Assembly (NCBI RefSeq): GCF_003030305.1
Contig: NZ_CP023676.1
Location: forward strand, 1,054,001 to 1,118,000
Direction of reading: 5' to 3'
DNA from: Cutibacterium acnes
Lineage (GTDB): Bacteria > Actinomycetota > Actinomycetes > Propionibacteriales > Propionibacteriaceae
Length of the DNA stretch: 64,000 nucleotides
Shown in pieces: positions 16,730-43,059 of the stretch. Under the pieces are notes generated by a model, which worked only from the letters and a program-made list of their open reading frames with translations, had not been told where the DNA came from and did not search any database. Positions within the stretch are counted from its first letter, which is position 1. Every line of letters begins with the position of its first letter. The translations under genes were made by a program, and so were the position numbers.

Positions 16730-17039
16730 TCTGGAGGTGTAGCGGTCAGCGACGGTGACATGGTTGCGGAGCCGAACAGCAGCGGAACAAAACCGGAACA
16801 TGGCGTGCTCGATAGTCGTCGGTGGTATTTGGCAGGGTTGTCCACAGCTGAGCGGACGGGCACGTTGGCAAGTTATCCACAGGTACAAAATTGCCTGACG
16901 AATTGTCCGACTCCGCTCCTACAGTTTGGGTGATGGCTCAGGGAGCTCGGTGGGGTTCTCTCATCGCCACATATGATCAACGTCGCGGCGGTGCCGCGCG
17001 TCAAATGGGGCGGGAGACCGCCTTCGAGGAAGGAACGAC
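16730..17039 (+). promoter_or_regulatory. recA upstream region (310 bases)
   Basis: No gene is supported. I looked for the actinobacterial SOS box GAAC-N4-GTTC and did not find one. The recA ribosome binding site is GAGGAAGGA just before 17040. Confidence 0.4.
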
Positions 17040-18086
17040 ATGGCAGCGACCGCTGACCGCGAAAAGGCCCTTGCCACGGCCTTGCAGCAGATCGAGAAGC
17101 AGCACGGCAAGGGCTCTATCATGCGCCTTGGCGAGCAGGAGACCGTTAAGATCGCCGCTATCCCCACGGGCTCGGTGGCCCTCGACGTCGCGTTGGGTGT
17201 CGGAGGCCTCCCACGTGGCAGAATCGTGGAGATCTATGGTCCCGAATCCTCCGGCAAGACGACGGTGGCTTTGCACGCAATCGCTAATGCCCAGGCTGAA
17301 GGCGGCATCTGTGCCTTTATTGACGCCGAGCACGCTCTCGACCCGGAATACGCACGCAAACTCGGGGTCGATACAGATTCCCTGCTGGTGAGCCAGCCTG
17401 ACAATGGTGAGCAGGCTCTCGAGATTGCTGACACCCTCGTCCGCTCGGGTGCCTTGGAGCTCATCGTTGTTGACTCGGTGGCCGCTCTGACCCCGAAGGC
17501 TGAGATCGAGGGCGAGATGGGTGATTCCCATGTTGGTTTGCAGGCCCGCCTTATGAGCCAGGCCCTGCGCAAGATGACCGGTGCGTTGAATGCGGCCGGT
17601 ACCACTGCCATCTTCATTAATCAGCTGCGCGAGAAGATCGGTGTCATGTTTGGCTCCCCGGAGACAACGACAGGTGGTCGCGCCCTCAAGTTCTACTCGT
17701 CCGTGCGCCTCGACGTGCGGCGTGTCGAAACTCTTAAAGACGGATCAGAGATGGTCGGTAACCGCACTCGTGTCAAGGTTGCCAAGAACAAGGTCGCCCC
17801 ACCTTTTAAGCAGGCAGAGTTTGACATCCTTTACGGACAGGGCATTTCTCGCGAGGGAAGCCTCATCGACATGGGCGTAGATTGCGGCATCATCACCAAA
17901 TCCGGTTCGTGGTTCAGCTACAACAATGAGCAGTTGGGTCAGGGTAAGGAGAACGTCCGAAAGTTCCTCAGAGGTAACCCGGATGTTGCCAATGAGATTG
18001 AGGACAAGATCCTGACTCACCTTGGCCTGCGCGAAGCCGAGGTCCCTGAAGGTGTCGATCCCCGAACTGGCGAGGTGGAATTCTGA
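17040..18086 (+). CDS. recA: RecA recombinase
   Basis: 348 residues, full length and with no intein. Walker [10 protein letters not shown] is at residues 67-75, the [15 protein letters not shown] Walker B region is near residue 140, and the loop [15 protein letters not shown] is near residue 198. It catalyses homologous strand exchange and normally also triggers LexA self-cleavage. The LexA homologue in this window appears unable to self-cleave, so the SOS role here is uncertain. recX follows within 30 bases. Confidence 0.98.
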
Positions 18087-26808: not shown

Positions 26809-26849
26809 GAGGGCGAACACGCTCTTGTCAACCTGTCGGAACGTCCTCC

Positions 26850-26855
26850 TACACT
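26850..26855 (+). promoter_or_regulatory. -10 box of hflX (leaderless)
   Basis: TACACT with seven bases to the ATG at 26863 and no ribosome binding site. Confidence 0.55.
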
Positions 26856-26862
26856 TAGCGCG

Positions 26863-28344
26863 ATGGCATTGGGGCGTGAGGATGGGTACCGGGTGAGCGA
26901 GATCGAACAAATCGATAACGAGCGCGAAGACGCGCTGAAGAACAACAACGGTTTTAGCGAGGATCAGAGTGACTACGACGGTGACCAATTTGATCTGGAT
27001 GCACGCCTATCGCTGACACGCGTGCCAGGTATGTCAACTGATCTGTCGGATATTTCCGAGGTTGAGTACCGTCAACTGAGGCTGGAACGAGTGGTGCTGT
27101 GTTCGGTGTGGACTCAGGGAACTGCCGCAGACGCCGAGAACACTATGGCGGAGCTGAAAGCCCTTGCTGAAACGGCGGGATCTCAGGTACTCGAAGCTGT
27201 CATGCAACATCGGACTACCCCGGATCCGGCGACGTACATTGGTTCGGGCAAGGTGGCAGAGCTTGCCGAGGTGGTGCGGGCGACTGGCGCCGATACTGTC
27301 ATTTGTGATGGTGAACTTGACGCCGCTCAGTTGCGCAACCTCGAGGATCGGGTCAAGGTCAAAGTTGTGGACCGGACGGCCCTGATTCTCGACATATTCG
27401 CTCAACATGCGCGCAGCGTTGAGGGTCGTACTCAGGTGGAGCTGGCCCAGCTTAATTATCTCAAGCAGAGATTGCGTGGTTGGGGCGGCAATCTCTCGCG
27501 TCAGACTGGTGGACGAGCCGCCGGAGGTGCTGGTATCGGTGGTCGTGGTCCCGGTGAGACCCGTATCGAGACTGACCGTCGACGTATTAGCCATCGGATT
27601 GCGGTGTTGCGTCGTCGTCTCACGCACATCGAGTCCACCCGTGCCTCCAAACGGGCCGATCGCATCCGAAACAAGGTGCCATCAGTGGCCATCGTCGGGT
27701 ACACCAACGCTGGTAAGTCTTCCTTGCTCAACAGGCTTACCCGCGCCGGGGTACTCGTCGAGAATGCTCTGTTTGCAACCCTTGACCCCACGACTCGACG
27801 CGCCACCACCTCCGACGGTCGGGTCTACACCCTCACTGACACGGTGGGATTTGTTCGACACTTGCCGCACGACCTCGTCGAGGCCTTTGCATCTACTCTG
27901 GAGGAAACGGCGATGGCCGATGTGCTCCTCCACGTTGTGGATGCAGATGATCCAGATCCACTCGGCCAGGTCGACGCAGTACGCGGGGTGCTGTCGGGGA
28001 TTGGGGCCAGTAATATTCCTGAGATTCTCGTCCTTAACAAGATTGATCGTCTTAGCGATGAAACCATCTTGACCTTGCGCTCTACCTTCCCGGGGGCTTA
28101 CTTAGTCTCTGCTCATACAGGTGAAGGAATCGATAAGCTTGTCGAGGCCATCGAGGCCGGACTTCCCATACCTTCCCAGCGCGTCGACGTCGTTATTCCT
28201 TATGCGCGTGGGGATCTTATGGACAAGATTCACCACAACGGAACTATCGGATTCATTGATCACACTGCTGATGGCATTCATGTCGTCGCTCACCTTCACC
28301 CTGCTCTAGCGGCCGAGGTCGAAGAGGCTTGTGATGGGGTCTGA
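26863..28344 (+). CDS. hflX: Ribosome-associated GTPase HflX
   Basis: 493 residues. The N-terminal HflX domain contains LNYLKQRLRGWGGNLSRQTGG and GGIGGRGPGETRIE-type glycine-rich motif (GAGIGGRGPGETRIETDRRRI), and the G domain has the P-loop GYTNAGKSSLLNRL near residue 284, DTVGFVRHLPHDL and NKID. HflX splits stalled or hibernating ribosomes. The start at ATG 26863 is supported by the -10 box seven bases before it. Its 3' end overlaps the next gene by 14 bases. Confidence 0.93.
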   Translation: MALGREDGYRVSEIEQIDNEREDALKNNNGFSEDQSDYDGDQFDLDARLSLTRVPGMSTDLSDISEVEYRQLRLERVVLCSVWTQGTAADAENTMAELKALAETAGSQVLEAVMQHRTTPDPATYIGSGKVAELAEVVRATGADTVICDGELDAAQLRNLEDRVKVKVVDRTALILDIFAQHARSVEGRTQVELAQLNYLKQRLRGWGGNLSRQTGGRAAGGAGIGGRGPGETRIETDRRRISHRIAVLRRRLTHIESTRASKRADRIRNKVPSVAIVGYTNAGKSSLLNRLTRAGVLVENALFATLDPTTRRATTSDGRVYTLTDTVGFVRHLPHDLVEAFASTLEETAMADVLLHVVDADDPDPLGQVDAVRGVLSGIGASNIPEILVLNKIDRLSDETILTLRSTFPGAYLVSAHTGEGIDKLVEAIEAGLPIPSQRVDVVIPYARGDLMDKIHHNGTIGFIDHTADGIHVVAHLHPALAAEVEEACDGV

Positions 28345-30382
28345 GCCGGCAGACGTCAGTCAGATGTGTCGTGACCTGCTCAGCACTGCCGTCTCTGAGA
28401 TGGGTGGTCAAGAGAGGCCGGGCCAAGTCGCGATGGCTAAAGCTGTCGACCAAGCTATGCGCGACAAGCTGCACTTGTTGGTCCAGGCCGGCACAGGAAC
28501 GGGAAAGTCCCTCGGGTACTTGGCTCCGGCCCTGGTCTATTGCGTCGAAAAAGGGGCACAAGTCATCGTCGCTACCGCTACGCTTGCCTTGCAGGCTCAG
28601 CTTGCCCACAAGGATATTCCGACCATCCTTGACGCATCTGAGAAGGTTTTGTCTCGTAGGCCGAGGGTGGCAGTCCTCAAAGGACGGAACAACCATATTT
28701 GCCTGCACAAGGTGCGGGGTGGTTCAACCCGCACCAAGGGACAGGATGCCCTCGTCCCCGGCGCAGATCTCGTTGTCGCCGCCGACGACGGTCGGGAGGT
28801 CGAAGCAGCTCCGGAATCTACGCTGGGCGCCGAGGTTGTCATGTTGCGGGAATGGGCCGAAAAACAGGTTGAGGAATCTGGACTGGGTGATCGCGACGAT
28901 GCTCCTGCCCATACTCCGCTCGCATGGACTCAGGTGAGCGTGCCAGCCAATGAGTGTCTTGGGGTTCAGCGGTGCCCATTTGGCAGTGAGTGCCTCTCGG
29001 AGGCTGCGCGGGAGCAGGCCCGAAATGCTGACCTGGTGGTCACCAATCACGCGATGCTCGCGATCGATGCTCTCAATGGCGGACGCGTCCTACCGGAGCA
29101 TGACACGGTCATTATCGACGAAGCCCATGAGTTGGTAAACCGGTTTACCAGGGCCGCTTCGAAGGACCTCTCTCCAGCTATCGTGACGACGACGGCGAAG
29201 CGGGCTATGACGTGGCTCGATGACGACGTGGGCGCCGACCTGTTGAATCAGGCTGATTCCATGGACCATGCCCTGGAGGCCACCGTCCCAGGTCGGGTCA
29301 CCACGCCGGACGCCCAAGTCATCCAGACCTGTGCCGTGTTGCGTGACCCTGCTCGCGTGGCAGTCAGCCAGCTGGGCCGAAATGACGAGGACTCTAGGGA
29401 ACCAGTCGATGCGGAGAGAGTACAGGCTCAAGCCGCGATGCGGGAGGTTTTCGAGACCGCCGAACGCATGGTGAGGCTGGCCGCCGCCGACGTGGTGTGG
29501 GTCTCTGAGTCTGAGAAGGGATACCGCAGCATTCACGTCGCTCCGCTGAGTGTTGGCGGCTTGCTACGAGAGAATTTCTTTGCTCAGTCCACGACGATAT
29601 TAACCTCGGCGACCTTATGCATCGGTGGTAATTTTCTCGCGATAGCGCGCGATGTCGGACTGTCCCCGCTCGAGCAAATTGAGGGAGACGCTCCGGAAAT
29701 CCTCGAGACTCAGATGGGATGGCGGGGAGTTGATGTTGGTTCACCTTTCGACTACTCAAAGCAAGGAATTCTTTATGTCGGTAGGTCGTTGCCCCGCCCG
29801 GGGCGCGACGGTATTGCACCTGAGGTTCTTGATGATCTTGCTGAGCTCGTGTGGGCAGCCGGTGGGAGGACTTTAGGACTGTTTTCTTCCCAGCGCAATG
29901 CTATAGCTGCTGCTGAGCACATGCGCAGTGCTATGCCTGATATTCCGGTCCTGTGCCAGGGAGAAGGGCACCTGGCTGATCTCACTCGGCGATTCGCGGC
30001 TGATCCGCGTACTTGTCTATTTGGAACTGTGTCGCTGTGGCAGGGGGTCGATATTCCTGGCGACACTTGCCGTCTGGTTGTTATTGATCGGATTCCGTTT
30101 CCACGTCCTGATGACCCGCTCATGGCAGCCCGGAGTAAGGCTGTTGAGGACGCTGGTGGCAATGGATTTATGACGGTGTCGGCTGGCCATGCCGCGCTCT
30201 TGTTGGCCCAGGGGGCTGGTCGTCTCATCCGTCGTGCTGACGATCGCGGGGTGGTCGCCGTTCTCGACCCACGGCTGGTGACTGCTAGGTACGGCAATTT
30301 TCTGCGGGCGTCGATGCCGCCCTTTTGGACTACGACCGATCGAGAGATGGCTGTTGGGGCGTTGCGAAGACTGGGGGAATAA
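28331..30382 (+). CDS. dinG: DinG/YoaA-type iron-sulfur DNA helicase
   Basis: 683 residues of the XPD-like superfamily 2. Walker A is GTGTGKSLGYLAPAL at about residue 57, the DEAH box is in VIIDEAHELV near residue 262, and four cysteines between them (HICLH, ECLG, RCPF, ECLS) can hold a 4Fe-4S cluster. The C-terminal motifs GLFSSQRNAI and VSLWQGVDIPGD complete the helicase core. It unwinds damaged or R-loop DNA 5' to 3'. The start is GTG 28331 or the next codon ATG 28334, inside the end of hflX. Confidence 0.9.
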   Translation: MMGSEPADVSQMCRDLLSTAVSEMGGQERPGQVAMAKAVDQAMRDKLHLLVQAGTGTGKSLGYLAPALVYCVEKGAQVIVATATLALQAQLAHKDIPTILDASEKVLSRRPRVAVLKGRNNHICLHKVRGGSTRTKGQDALVPGADLVVAADDGREVEAAPESTLGAEVVMLREWAEKQVEESGLGDRDDAPAHTPLAWTQVSVPANECLGVQRCPFGSECLSEAAREQARNADLVVTNHAMLAIDALNGGRVLPEHDTVIIDEAHELVNRFTRAASKDLSPAIVTTTAKRAMTWLDDDVGADLLNQADSMDHALEATVPGRVTTPDAQVIQTCAVLRDPARVAVSQLGRNDEDSREPVDAERVQAQAAMREVFETAERMVRLAAADVVWVSESEKGYRSIHVAPLSVGGLLRENFFAQSTTILTSATLCIGGNFLAIARDVGLSPLEQIEGDAPEILETQMGWRGVDVGSPFDYSKQGILYVGRSLPRPGRDGIAPEVLDDLAELVWAAGGRTLGLFSSQRNAIAAAEHMRSAMPDIPVLCQGEGHLADLTRRFAADPRTCLFGTVSLWQGVDIPGDTCRLVVIDRIPFPRPDDPLMAARSKAVEDAGGNGFMTVSAGHAALLLAQGAGRLIRRADDRGVVAVLDPRLVTARYGNFLRASMPPFWTTTDREMAVGALRRLGE

Positions 30383-30491: not shown

Positions 30492-31166
30492 TTAGAGTCG
30501 TCTCAGCAAGGACACAGCCTGACCCAGCAGAGAAGCATCATCGAGATTGATTGGTGAGTGGGTAGGGTTGGATGCCAACAGCCATCGCCGTCCCGAGACG
30601 TTGGATAAAGTGCGAACGACGGTCGTTCCGCCCGCTGTGGCTGCTACGAGGTATGTCTCAGGTGGATCGTCGGGCAGATCGCTTACCGATATACGTCGCA
30701 CCACTACAAGATCTCCGGAGTGGATATCGGGAGACATTCCGTCGTCGCGGACGATGATCACTGCGTGCTCGCCGTGACTTAGAAGCTGAGGTGGCACCGC
30801 GATGACGGTTTCATCGTGTTCTTCGTTACTCGGATTGAGGAGTTTGACTTGAAAGGCTTGCGGTCCGTGCGGATCGCTGGACTCGACGGTTTCTTCGACC
30901 ACCTCGAGGGTGCCATTGGTTCGACGTAGCAGCCCTAGATCGATGAGGGACGAAATACGCCGCTGGACTGTTGATGTGCTCGCAGCTCCTGTCATCTCAG
31001 CAAGGGCGCGAACTGTTGGGGCTTTGCCGTCGCGACGCAGCCCTTCCTTGACGGCTGCCAAGACTTCGCGTTCCTTGGCAGAGGGCTCACGGGTATTCGT
31101 GAACGGAACAGCCGACGAGACGGCGGCCGGGTCCGAGGTATCGGTTCCGGGCGTATCGGTGATCAT
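30492..31166 (-). CDS. lexA: LexA family repressor with apparently dead self-cleavage domain
   Basis: 224 residues from the ATG at 31166, chosen because TACCGT ends seven bases before it; a GTG at 31175 overlaps that box. The N-terminal winged helix (SAKEREVLAAVKEG ... APTVRALAEMTGAASTSTVQRRISSL) is clearly LexA. The C-terminal part keeps the S24 fold (SGDLVVVRR ... WLLASNPTHSPI ... LGQAVSLLRRL). However, the Ala-Gly cleavage site is not visible, the GDSM serine position reads DGM, and the lysine of the TVK motif reads TVV. It would still bind DNA but probably does not self-cleave. The position next to nrdR matches mycobacterial lexA. Confidence 0.82.
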   Translation of the reverse strand: MITDTPGTDTSDPAAVSSAVPFTNTREPSAKEREVLAAVKEGLRRDGKAPTVRALAEMTGAASTSTVQRRISSLIDLGLLRRTNGTLEVVEETVESSDPHGPQAFQVKLLNPSNEEHDETVIAVPPQLLSHGEHAVIIVRDDGMSPDIHSGDLVVVRRISVSDLPDDPPETYLVAATAGGTTVVRTLSNVSGRRWLLASNPTHSPINLDDASLLGQAVSLLRRL

Positions 31167-31173
31167 GGCAGTC

Positions 31174-31179
31174 ACGGTA
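31174..31179 (-). promoter_or_regulatory. -10 box of lexA (leaderless)
   Basis: Minus-strand TACCGT, seven bases from the ATG at 31166. Confidence 0.5.
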
Positions 31180-31305
31180 TAGGGCAGCTACGACAGTTTC
31201 CCCATCAGTGGCGTTTTGGCTCCGTGCGAGGAGTGTGGGGGCAAAAACTGGGCACCTAATCCGCTCTGACTAGGTTGTTCTCCTCGTGTTCCATGGTTAT
31301 GACGG

Positions 31306-31388: not shown

Positions 31389-31433
31389 CCGCTGACGGGA
31401 GCGGATGGCTCTCGTCGACAGAGAGGTGATCCG

Positions 31434-31784
31434 ATGAGTGCTCAGACGTACGAGTGGTATATCGAGACGACGTCCAGTCGCCGAGGTGACCTGGTCGTCG
31501 GACCGTGGCAGGATGAGTTGGCCGAACCGGTGGTCGTTATCGATCGACGGGAATTGATGGCGGGACGCCCTAGCGCTACTGCGCGCCGTAAGTCCCTTCA
31601 CAACCGGTTCTGGGATGCTGCTGTGCTGGCAACTATCGCTGTCATGATCGTCGGGGTGATTCTCGCCCTAGGGCGCATCGGCCAGATGTGGCAAGGGGAT
31701 CCTGCCAGTGGGCATGAGGATCATATGGGCGTTGTCCAGGTTGACGCGCATCAACCTGGGGCACCCTCCGATGCCAGATCCTGA
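31434..31784 (+). CDS. Small single-pass membrane protein at the divS/chiZ position
   Basis: 116 residues from the ATG at 31434 behind GAGAGGTGA (31421-31429). About 60 polar residues are followed by one membrane helix (VLATIAVMIVGVILALG, near residues 65-83) and a 30-residue polar tail. It is divergent from lexA, exactly where corynebacteria and mycobacteria carry the SOS cell-division suppressors DivS and Rv2719c. Those have a LysM domain after the helix; none is seen here. It may be a shortened DivS-like protein or unrelated. No sequence motif proves function. Confidence 0.7.
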   Translation: MSAQTYEWYIETTSSRRGDLVVGPWQDELAEPVVVIDRRELMAGRPSATARRKSLHNRFWDAAVLATIAVMIVGVILALGRIGQMWQGDPASGHEDHMGVVQVDAHQPGAPSDARS

Positions 31785-32008: not shown

Positions 32009-32515
32009 ATGCGCTGCCCGTTCTGTCAGCATGATGACTCTCGAGTCCTGGATTCGCGGGTATGCGAAGACGGTACTGCGATCCGTCGGAGGCGGCAGTG
32101 CCCGATGTGTGAACGACGGTTTACGACCATCGAACGCATGCAGATGACAGTTCACAAGCGCAACGGCATCGAGGAGCCCTTCTCCCGTGACAAGGTGATC
32201 CGTGGTGTGCGCAACGCATGCAAGGGACGCCCGGTCACAGATGCCGATCTAGCTTTGCTGGGACAACGCGTCGAGGACGGTCTACGGGCCCGAGGAGTCG
32301 CGGAGATACCCAGCGAGGAAATCGGGTTGGCGATCTTGGGGCCACTGCGTGAACTTGATTCCATCGCTTACCTGAGGTTTGCCAGCGTTTACTTGAACTA
32401 CAACACCATCGAGGACTTCGCTACTGAGATTGATCGGTTGCGCGACGAATCCTCCGATAAAACGAAGTCCTCGAGTCGTAAACGGCTTTCAAAGCAGGAC
32501 GAGCCACTGTTCTGA
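32009..32515 (+). CDS. nrdR: Ribonucleotide reductase repressor NrdR
   Basis: 168 residues. AAGGAGG (31997-32003) sits five bases before the ATG at 32009, giving the canonical start [17 protein letters not shown]. The zinc ribbon uses CPFC and CPMC, and the ATP-cone domain follows ([20 protein letters not shown]). NrdR senses dATP/ATP and represses ribonucleotide reductase genes. Two NrdR boxes upstream suggest it controls itself and the nrdJ gene 81 bases downstream. The C-terminal tail is lysine/serine rich. Confidence 0.95.
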
Positions 32516-42162: not shown

Positions 42163-43059
42163 GTGCCATCGACGACTGCTGAACTGCTTGACCTGCTCGA
42201 TCTTGAAGACCTCGATCTCGATCTGTTTCGAGGCCGGCAACCACACACGACGTGGCAGCGGACCTTCGGGGGCCAGGTACTGGCTCAGGCTCTGGTTGCT
42301 GGTGCCCGCACTATTCCTGAGCGGACCGCCCATTCCATGCACGCGCTGTTCCTACATGCTGGACGCACCGATCTGCCGATGATCTTTGATGTCGAGAGAA
42401 TTCGTGACGGTCGCACCTTCAGCACTCGCCGTGTCAACGCTCGCCAACACGGTCGGACGATCTTCACCGCGGAACTGTCCTTCAAGAACCGCGAGGACGG
42501 CCCGGAGCACTCCGATCCGATGCCGGACTGTCTTCCGGACCCGGATCGCTGTCCGACCCTAGCCCAGGCCCTCGAACAGATGTTCGGGCGACCTATGCCC
42601 ACCGTCAAGGAGTGGGATGCGCTCGACGTGCGGTTGGCCGGTGACGGATCGCAGCTCGTCGATCCCAACCACGTCACCCACTTGAGTTTGTGGGTACGCA
42701 CCACCGCGAGCCTTCCTGACGACCGCGTTGTGCAGCGTGCGATCCTCGCCTACATTTCCGATATCAGTCTCATGGCTGGTGCTGTTATGCCACACCTGGG
42801 ATCGGTGCCATCGGGTATGGTCGTCAATCCGGCATCGCTGGATCACGCCATGTGGTTCCACCGGACTGCCGAGGCCGACTGCTGGATGCTCTACGACCAG
42901 GTTTCTCCGAGCGCATCAGGCCTGCTCGGTTTCTCCATGGGCCGACTGATGCAGGATGGCAAACTCATCGCGTCCTGCTGCCAGGAGGGGGTCATGAGGC
43001 TGGTAGATGTGAACGACCTCGACGCCTCAGTAACGTTTCCGCTTGGCCGTGGCACGTGA
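42163..43059 (+). CDS. tesB: Acyl-CoA thioesterase II (TesB)
   Basis: 298 residues with a double hotdog fold. The N-terminal FRGRQPHTTWQRTFGGQVLAQALVAGA and the central SFKNREDGPEHSDPMP match TesB; the C-terminal half carries LWVRTTASLPDDRVVQRAILAYISDISLM and HAMWFHR, which hold the catalytic Asp/Gln/Thr set of the family. It hydrolyses medium and long acyl-CoA. The start is GTG 42163; CACAGT six bases upstream may be a -10 box for a leaderless message. Confidence 0.9.
   Translation: MPSTTAELLDLLDLEDLDLDLFRGRQPHTTWQRTFGGQVLAQALVAGARTIPERTAHSMHALFLHAGRTDLPMIFDVERIRDGRTFSTRRVNARQHGRTIFTAELSFKNREDGPEHSDPMPDCLPDPDRCPTLAQALEQMFGRPMPTVKEWDALDVRLAGDGSQLVDPNHVTHLSLWVRTTASLPDDRVVQRAILAYISDISLMAGAVMPHLGSVPSGMVVNPASLDHAMWFHRTAEADCWMLYDQVSPSASGLLGFSMGRLMQDGKLIASCCQEGVMRLVDVNDLDASVTFPLGRGT

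Follow-up and report, generated by a model that had tools for sequence, protein, structure and literature searches.

A LexA homologue without its self-cleavage parts in Cutibacterium acnes and relatives, with PafBC as candidate successor in DNA-damage control

The window analysed here, a stretch of 64,000 nucleotides of Cutibacterium acnes DNA, encodes on its minus strand (30492-31166) a 224-residue LexA homologue, named LexA* in this work, which has lost the parts required for self-cleavage. From sequence comparison we consider it probable (about 65%) that LexA* is a vertically inherited, non-cleaving pseudo-protease which persists as a DNA-binding regulator, that the SOS circuit was dismantled, and that PafBC took over. 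According to this proposal, the lexA gene of the Cutibacterium acnes/avidum clade would have come to encode a pseudo-protease in which the winged helix and the S24-like domain are kept; dismantling of the SOS circuit in the clade would be reflected in the LexA boxes gone from the three promoters at which this was seen, those of lexA, recA, and imuAB; and RecA would no longer serve as a LexA co-protease. Control of damage genes would have passed to the single-stranded-DNA-sensing activator PafBC, as motif and gene presence suggest, which would drive recA and probably imuAB and hflX-dinG, while purifying selection would maintain LexA* as a regulator that binds DNA with altered specificity and is perhaps itself driven by PafBC.

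The LexA* protein and its cleavage residues

The actinobacterial gene order read in the first-pass annotation was found again, the locus being the orthologous dinG-lexA-nrdR interval.

28331-30382, plus strand: dinG helicase (ORF and profile matches)
30492-31166, minus strand: LexA*, LexA-like protein of 224 aa without the self-cleavage parts (ORF and Pfam matches)
30516-30824, minus strand: S24-like C-terminal domain, predicted pseudo-protease (PF00717 match, profile alignment)
30612-30614, minus strand: Arg codon (Arg185) at the expected catalytic Lys (alignments, codon read from the DNA)
30738-30740, minus strand: Gly codon (Gly143) at the expected catalytic Ser (alignments, codon read from the DNA)
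30909-31079, minus strand: LexA winged-helix domain, recognition helix altered to STVQRRI (PF01726 match, alignment)
32009-32515, plus strand: nrdR, syntenic marker (ORF and profile matches)

LexA_DNA_bind (PF01726; cut-off 23.7) matched the N-terminal half of LexA* with 30.0-32.5 bits, and Peptidase_S24 (PF00717; cut-off 23.3) matched the C-terminal half with 42.7-43.9 bits; the score for the NCBIfam lexA equivalog, 62.7 bits, is below the cut-off of 110.95. The closest solved relatives found by phmmer are LexA C-terminal domains (6a2r, 6a2q, 6a2s, and 6a2t; E 4e-10 to 1e-9), and a profile-profile alignment (hhalign) joined LexA* and canonical LexA over their full length with a probability of 99.8%. 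An AlphaFold model computed from a 6-sequence alignment was poor (mean pLDDT 48, below 50 in the C-terminal half) and does not confirm the fold. A second, intact lexA gene was considered and rejected, as the genome search revealed none: in the profile search of the 2,495,001-base genome, LexA* is the sole S24 protein and the single LexA_DNA_bind match above cut-off, and the other PF01726 match (21.5 bits) falls below the cut-off and is without an S24 domain.

It had been noted in the first-pass annotation that neither an Ala-Gly site nor the catalytic Ser motif is visible in this protein, and the alignments bear out both points. The Ala-Gly cleavage segment (VGRIAAGAPILAEQ in canonical relatives) is deleted as a whole in 7/7 members of the LexA* clade, the catalytic Ser column is Gly and the catalytic Lys column is Arg in all seven, whereas Ala-Gly, Ser, and Lys are each present in 23/23 canonical relatives aligned (21 chosen among the 30 best-scoring family loci, and the two canonical members of the genus). 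The profile-profile alignment placed Ser and Lys in the same register as the multiple alignment, with the 99.8% probability given above. The loss of the Lys had also been seen correctly, none of the seven keeping it, but the 'TVV' that had been assigned to its position immediately precedes the Lys column and is one residue out of register. Similarly, the description of the winged helix as normal holds for the PF01726 match above cut-off, but not for the recognition helix, which reads ST[VI]QRRI in 7/7 LexA* proteins, the two canonical Cutibacterium proteins having SSVQHQL and SSVHYQL instead. Since this helix is altered in all seven, the operator may have changed too. The missing cleavage segment and the Ser-to-Gly and Lys-to-Arg changes support the conclusion that LexA* is unable to cleave itself by the known mechanism, and a LexA* of this kind could not be removed by activated RecA in the classical way.

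The start codon of LexA* is an ATG at 31166, 7 nt past the -10-like hexamer TACCGT, and ATG or GTG stands at this position in 7/7 clade members, which fits a leaderless lexA* mRNA; an alternative GTG at 31175 overlaps the hexamer. A leaderless hflX was considered and dropped, the ATG being ACG in 2/7. A small ORF at 31424-31784, divergent from lexA*, has recognisable relatives in the two canonical Cutibacterium genomes (G003 and G008) and in the sister genus g4, which we presume may be Acidipropionibacterium; no Pfam family matched this ORF.

SOS boxes and PafBC-type motifs at damage-gene promoters

SOS boxes were scored as tCGAAC-N4-GTTCGa over 12 positions and called at 10 or more matches, a score reached in 3-6% of random 400-bp windows of these regions. 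All six canonical genomes examined (G003, G008, G020, G033, G043, and G072) have a box of 10-11/12 upstream of recA and two or three boxes of 10-12/12 upstream of lexA. No box was found upstream of recA in the seven LexA* genomes (best 7-8/12) or in five g4 genomes without lexA (8/12), nor was one found upstream of lexA* (0/7; best 7/12). At imuAB, a box of 11/12 is present in G008, the sole canonical genus member with imuB, and none was found in 7/7 LexA* genomes (best 7-8/12); a search for imuB in the canonical G003 gave no match, and the locus fetched as imuB from G033 is a UmuC-like gene, which was excluded from the imu count. The absence of boxes at lexA, recA, and imuAB throughout the clade agrees with the earlier suggestion that the SOS switch is rewired. 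However, a LexA that still sits on the SOS genes and is removed in some other way, as had also been suggested, is not what these promoters show: because the boxes themselves are gone, the SOS circuit appears to have been dismantled, with PafBC-type promoters instead, rather than equipped with a new off-switch for the same repressor. It is possible that LexA* represses other targets constitutively, or that a ligand or another protease acts on it.

When whole genomes were searched for the exact SOS core, there were 19 matches versus 20 in the control for the seven LexA* genomes, and 8 versus 3 for the two canonical Cutibacterium genomes. C. avidum alone has 7 exact cores versus 2 in the reversed control, which counts against the explanation that we favour. 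In C. modestum, a perfect SOS-like core (CGAACACGCGTTCG, 10/12; G004:C1:425141-425154) lies about 20 bp before the PafBC-type site of hflX; this core, a further point against our explanation, has been retained by none of the other six species, its left half being partly kept in some relatives, and we regard it as chance or a remnant. The exact core at position 42573 of the window was set aside, as it lies inside the coding frame of the ORF at 42163-43059 and not in a promoter.

An adjacent pair of WYL-domain genes (PafBC) is present in 9/9 genomes of the genus. For the pair of the window genome, the PafB match is to the solved 7p5x, 9fnd, and 6sj9 (E 1e-41 to 6e-39) and the PafC match is to solved PafC (E 2e-31); a TatC-like gene, so named from ORF reading, follows the pair in G000 and G008. 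Mycobacterial PafBC is reported to be activated by single-stranded DNA (PMC11804915), and therefore PafBC could act as a damage sensor without LexA. Since the two canonical species have the pair as well, a takeover cannot be concluded from its mere presence. The published PafBC (RecA-NDp) motif is tTGTCRgtg-N8-TannnT (PMC5656591), with variants given in PMC8151990. According to published accounts, PafBC homologues of Streptomyces venezuelae go without the mycobacterial motif (PMC9380542), and lexA of M. tuberculosis is not under PafBC control (PMC8151990), both of which speak against the takeover proposed here. The sites of this type in the window, with the genes they precede, are the following.

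16816-16838, plus strand: PafBC-type site TCGTCGGTG-N8-CAGGGT upstream of recA, 10/12, at the SOS-box position of canonical relatives (motif score)
16903-16925, plus strand: second, degenerate PafBC-type site of recA, TTGTCCGAC-N8-TACAGT; its counterparts in canonical and lexA-less genomes score 10-12/12 (motif score)
17040-18086, plus strand: recA (ORF; orthologues at the same place)
26833-26855, plus strand: PafBC-type site CTGTCGGAA-N8-TACACT upstream of hflX-dinG, 9-10/12 in 7/7 (motif score)
26863-28344, plus strand: hflX, overlapping dinG (ORF and profile matches)
31174-31196, minus strand: lexA* promoter CTGTCGTAG-N8-TACCGT, PafBC-type, 9/12 here, replacing the canonical SOS boxes (motif score)

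The recA promoters of the three groups of genomes differ in the arrangement of these elements. Canonical genomes combine an SOS box at recA with a PafBC-type site of 10-12/12 that lies about 70-90 bp further downstream. The g4 genomes have lost the box and have a near-perfect PafBC-type site (11-12/12 in 5/5). In the LexA* genomes a PafBC-type site of 9-11/12 occupies the former SOS-box position in 7/7, and matches of 8-9/12 are what is left at the older, decayed site. In a ranking on both strands of all 57,049 positions for which 6/7 or more species are aligned, the new recA site came second (by mean score it ties for first), with hflX in fourth place and lexA* in fourteenth. From this ranking, the chance of such a site per upstream window of about 120 bp was estimated as roughly 0.4% for recA, 1% for hflX, which is a post hoc estimate as this site was noticed after the fact, and 3% for lexA*.

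The motifs at hflX-dinG, lexA*, and imuAB are weaker than those at recA. A best PafBC-type score of at least 8/12 occurs in 76% of random 400-bp windows, and one of at least 9/12 in 24%, so that the motifs of lexA* (8-9/12 across the seven) and imuAB (8/12) lie close to background in their match counts, although conserved in position. At imuAB of the seven, the invariantly placed CTGTCGGG-N9-CACGGT scores 8/12 in 7/7, which by count alone is background, and in 4/7 of these promoters other sites score as high or higher. Upstream of imuB in g4, at a comparable distance, a site of 9-11/12 is found in 4/5 genomes and is their best site in 1,500 bp. A strict-motif scan of 9 genomes gave 118 matches versus 22 in a reversed control which was not composition-matched, and many of the matches lie in coding frames; the 12 matches of the window genome include none at recA, lexA*, or imuAB, which counts against our explanation too. 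The lexA* promoter motif weakly suggests that damage raises the level of LexA*. As a tentative extension, which we regard as rather doubtful, the SOS logic might be inverted, with LexA* as a PafBC target and a damage-raised, non-cleavable brake or new regulator in a PafBC-only response, and the whole clade without a LexA/RecA SOS switch.

Other PafBC-type motifs were observed in passing: one precedes an rph-rdgB-thyA-like operon both in a dead-LexA genome (G000:C1:1781250; L152) and in a canonical one (G008:C1:1824490; L169), and a strict motif lies at the start of an mfd-like gene in one species only (G002:C1:525270; L158), the gene names being taken from ORF reading.

Descent, constraint, and alternative readings

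Seven of the nine genus genomes carry LexA*, and two (G003 and G008) carry canonical LexA. The species tree (six proteins, 2,601 columns, 18 genomes) has the form ((seven LexA*),(G003,G008)),g4 with node supports of 98-100, and by this topology LexA function was lost twice, separately; the seven LexA* genomes are of one ancestry and therefore count as one event. In the family, 190/197 genomes have an S24 match in the profile search, with E-values of 1e-10 to 1e-13 in the seven LexA* genomes and of 1e-31 or better in nearly all others, the exceptions (G009, G053, G157, G170, G184, and G186) being mostly fragmented drafts. Four of the 7/197 genomes without a match belong to g4, and two of these four are complete single contigs. 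In 5/5 g4 genomes sampled (G011, G034, G053, G068, and G081; loci L181-L185), lexA is absent from the dinG-nrdR interval, there being no tblastn match in the 20-kb loci, and an alignment search gave only weak winged-helix matches (E 7e-5 to 0.007), which lie about 13 kb from nrdR, outside the interval. The S24 match of G053 is a 138-codon ORF which adjoins a Y-family polymerase gene (G053:C17:37728-38581; L054, L202) and is therefore UmuD-like; the two genes resemble a umuDC pair, although this genome lacks lexA.

That an unrelated repressor moved into the lexA locus by transfer might be argued from an identity of only about 36% to the canonical LexA of the same genus (about 36-41% in the matched part for G003 and G008), but is scarcely plausible given the full-length profile match to LexA, the locus shared with canonical lexA, and a gene-tree position that agrees with descent, in which LexA* lies closest to the canonical lexA of G003 and G008 when the remaining LexAs of the family serve as outgroup. 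A scan of genome contigs with two peptide patterns gave five loci, all Cutibacterium. It is also very improbable that LexA* cuts itself via another Ser/Lys pair or a relocated site. Three Ser columns (205, 210, and 225) are invariant in the C-terminal part and a linker Ala-Gly occurs in one of the seven (G002); however, these Ser columns are away from the S24 dyad columns, the alignment contains no Lys of the C-terminal domain common to all seven, the linker Ala-Gly is not shared by the seven, and the profile alignment is unambiguous at its 99.8% probability. The alignment thus places no other Ser/Lys pair and no shared Ala-Gly in register, the known dyad being Gly/Arg in 7/7, and on this point the first-pass annotation stands.

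Two further readings depend on how the gene has evolved. Over 7 species, lexA* has a median dN/dS of 0.15; taken separately, the winged helix has 0.084, the C-terminal domain 0.112, and the linker 0.27. For the neighbours the value is 0.01-0.04 (recA, nrdR, and hflX) and 0.09 (dinG, from 3/7 genomes, the start pattern having missed the other four). In the gene tree the stem of the LexA* clade is 3.4 substitutions per site long; in the species tree, built from six neighbouring proteins, it is 0.2. These values suggest that lexA* went through fast change and then came under constraint. The very long stem, the rate above that of the neighbours (0.15 vs 0.01-0.09), and the deletion of lexA in the sister genus g4 could be taken to mean that LexA* is a functionless, decaying relic at the stage before deletion. 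We hold this to be improbable, because the purifying selection on the winged helix argues that lexA* is not a dying gene; moreover, LexA* is intact in 7/7 species at 70-87% identity to the window protein, its dN/dS stays far below 1, with the minimum in the DNA-binding domain, and C. acnes transcribes it, as reported by qPCR with primers that match the gene (PMC11264938). A pseudogene reading was rejected on dN/dS. The strong constraint on the winged helix (0.084) and a recognition helix changed alike in 7/7 would also fit a LexA* that continues to repress damage genes from new operators, its removal being due to another protease, a ligand, or a modification, and LexA of Synechocystis is reported to stay a repressor without Ala-Gly and Ser, under control by modification (PMC7567884). 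Such a repressor is nevertheless unlikely, as visual inspection of the aligned recA, lexA, and imuAB promoters brought up no new palindromic operator, and motifs of this type also occur at recA and imuAB in the lexA-less g4, which shows that the motif does not need LexA*.

Related systems and implications

For the reading that we prefer, a pseudo-protease LexA* with PafBC as successor, the closest precedent is LexA of Synechocystis sp. PCC 6803, which like LexA* is without the Ala-Gly site and the catalytic Ser and is described as a transcription factor outside SOS (PMC7567884, PMC3091678). The changes differ, Ala-Gly having become Gly-Gly and Ser having become Asp in Synechocystis, whereas in LexA* the segment is deleted, Ser became Gly, and Lys became Arg; and unlike Synechocystis, the LexA* clade shows a candidate successor, PafBC, together with in-place promoter replacement. 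Cyanobacteria without lexA are reported to have lost the boxes as well, and the authors suggest that another regulator took over (PMC3091678); boxes were lost with LexA, as here, but no successor was named there, while PafBC is a concrete candidate here. The LexA proteins of Streptomyces, Mycobacterium, and the two canonical Cutibacterium species resemble LexA* in locus, domain order, and full-length homology, but they keep Ala-Gly, Ser, Lys, and SOS boxes, all of which LexA* and the promoters of its clade are without. The mycobacterial PafBC/RecA-NDp response is similar in its PafB and PafC homologues, in motif type, and in having recA as a target (PMC5656591, PMC8151990). However, in mycobacteria PafBC works beside a functional LexA, whereas in the LexA* clade no damage switch other than PafBC would be known, and the motifs at lexA* and imuAB are degenerate.

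Two separate losses of LexA function beside close relatives that keep LexA constitute a natural experiment on the replacement of a damage response, from which recA and the mutasome are predicted to respond here only to PafBC. The targets of a protease-less LexA also become directly testable. In the open-licence literature, which mostly leaves subscription papers outside, we found no description of a dead LexA or of PafBC control in Cutibacterium, and nothing joining PafBC to Propionibacter/Cutibacterium or LexA to Acidipropionibacterium. Phage induction by mitomycin C is reported for more than 70% of P. acnes isolates (PMC2533672), a result that does not test LexA. C. acnes is among the commonest bacteria of human skin, and lexA of this species has been used as an SOS marker; if lexA* is no longer the SOS repressor, lexA-based SOS readings need another interpretation. 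The published C. acnes qPCR primers labelled 'lexA, SOS response' (PMC11264938) match lexA* exactly.
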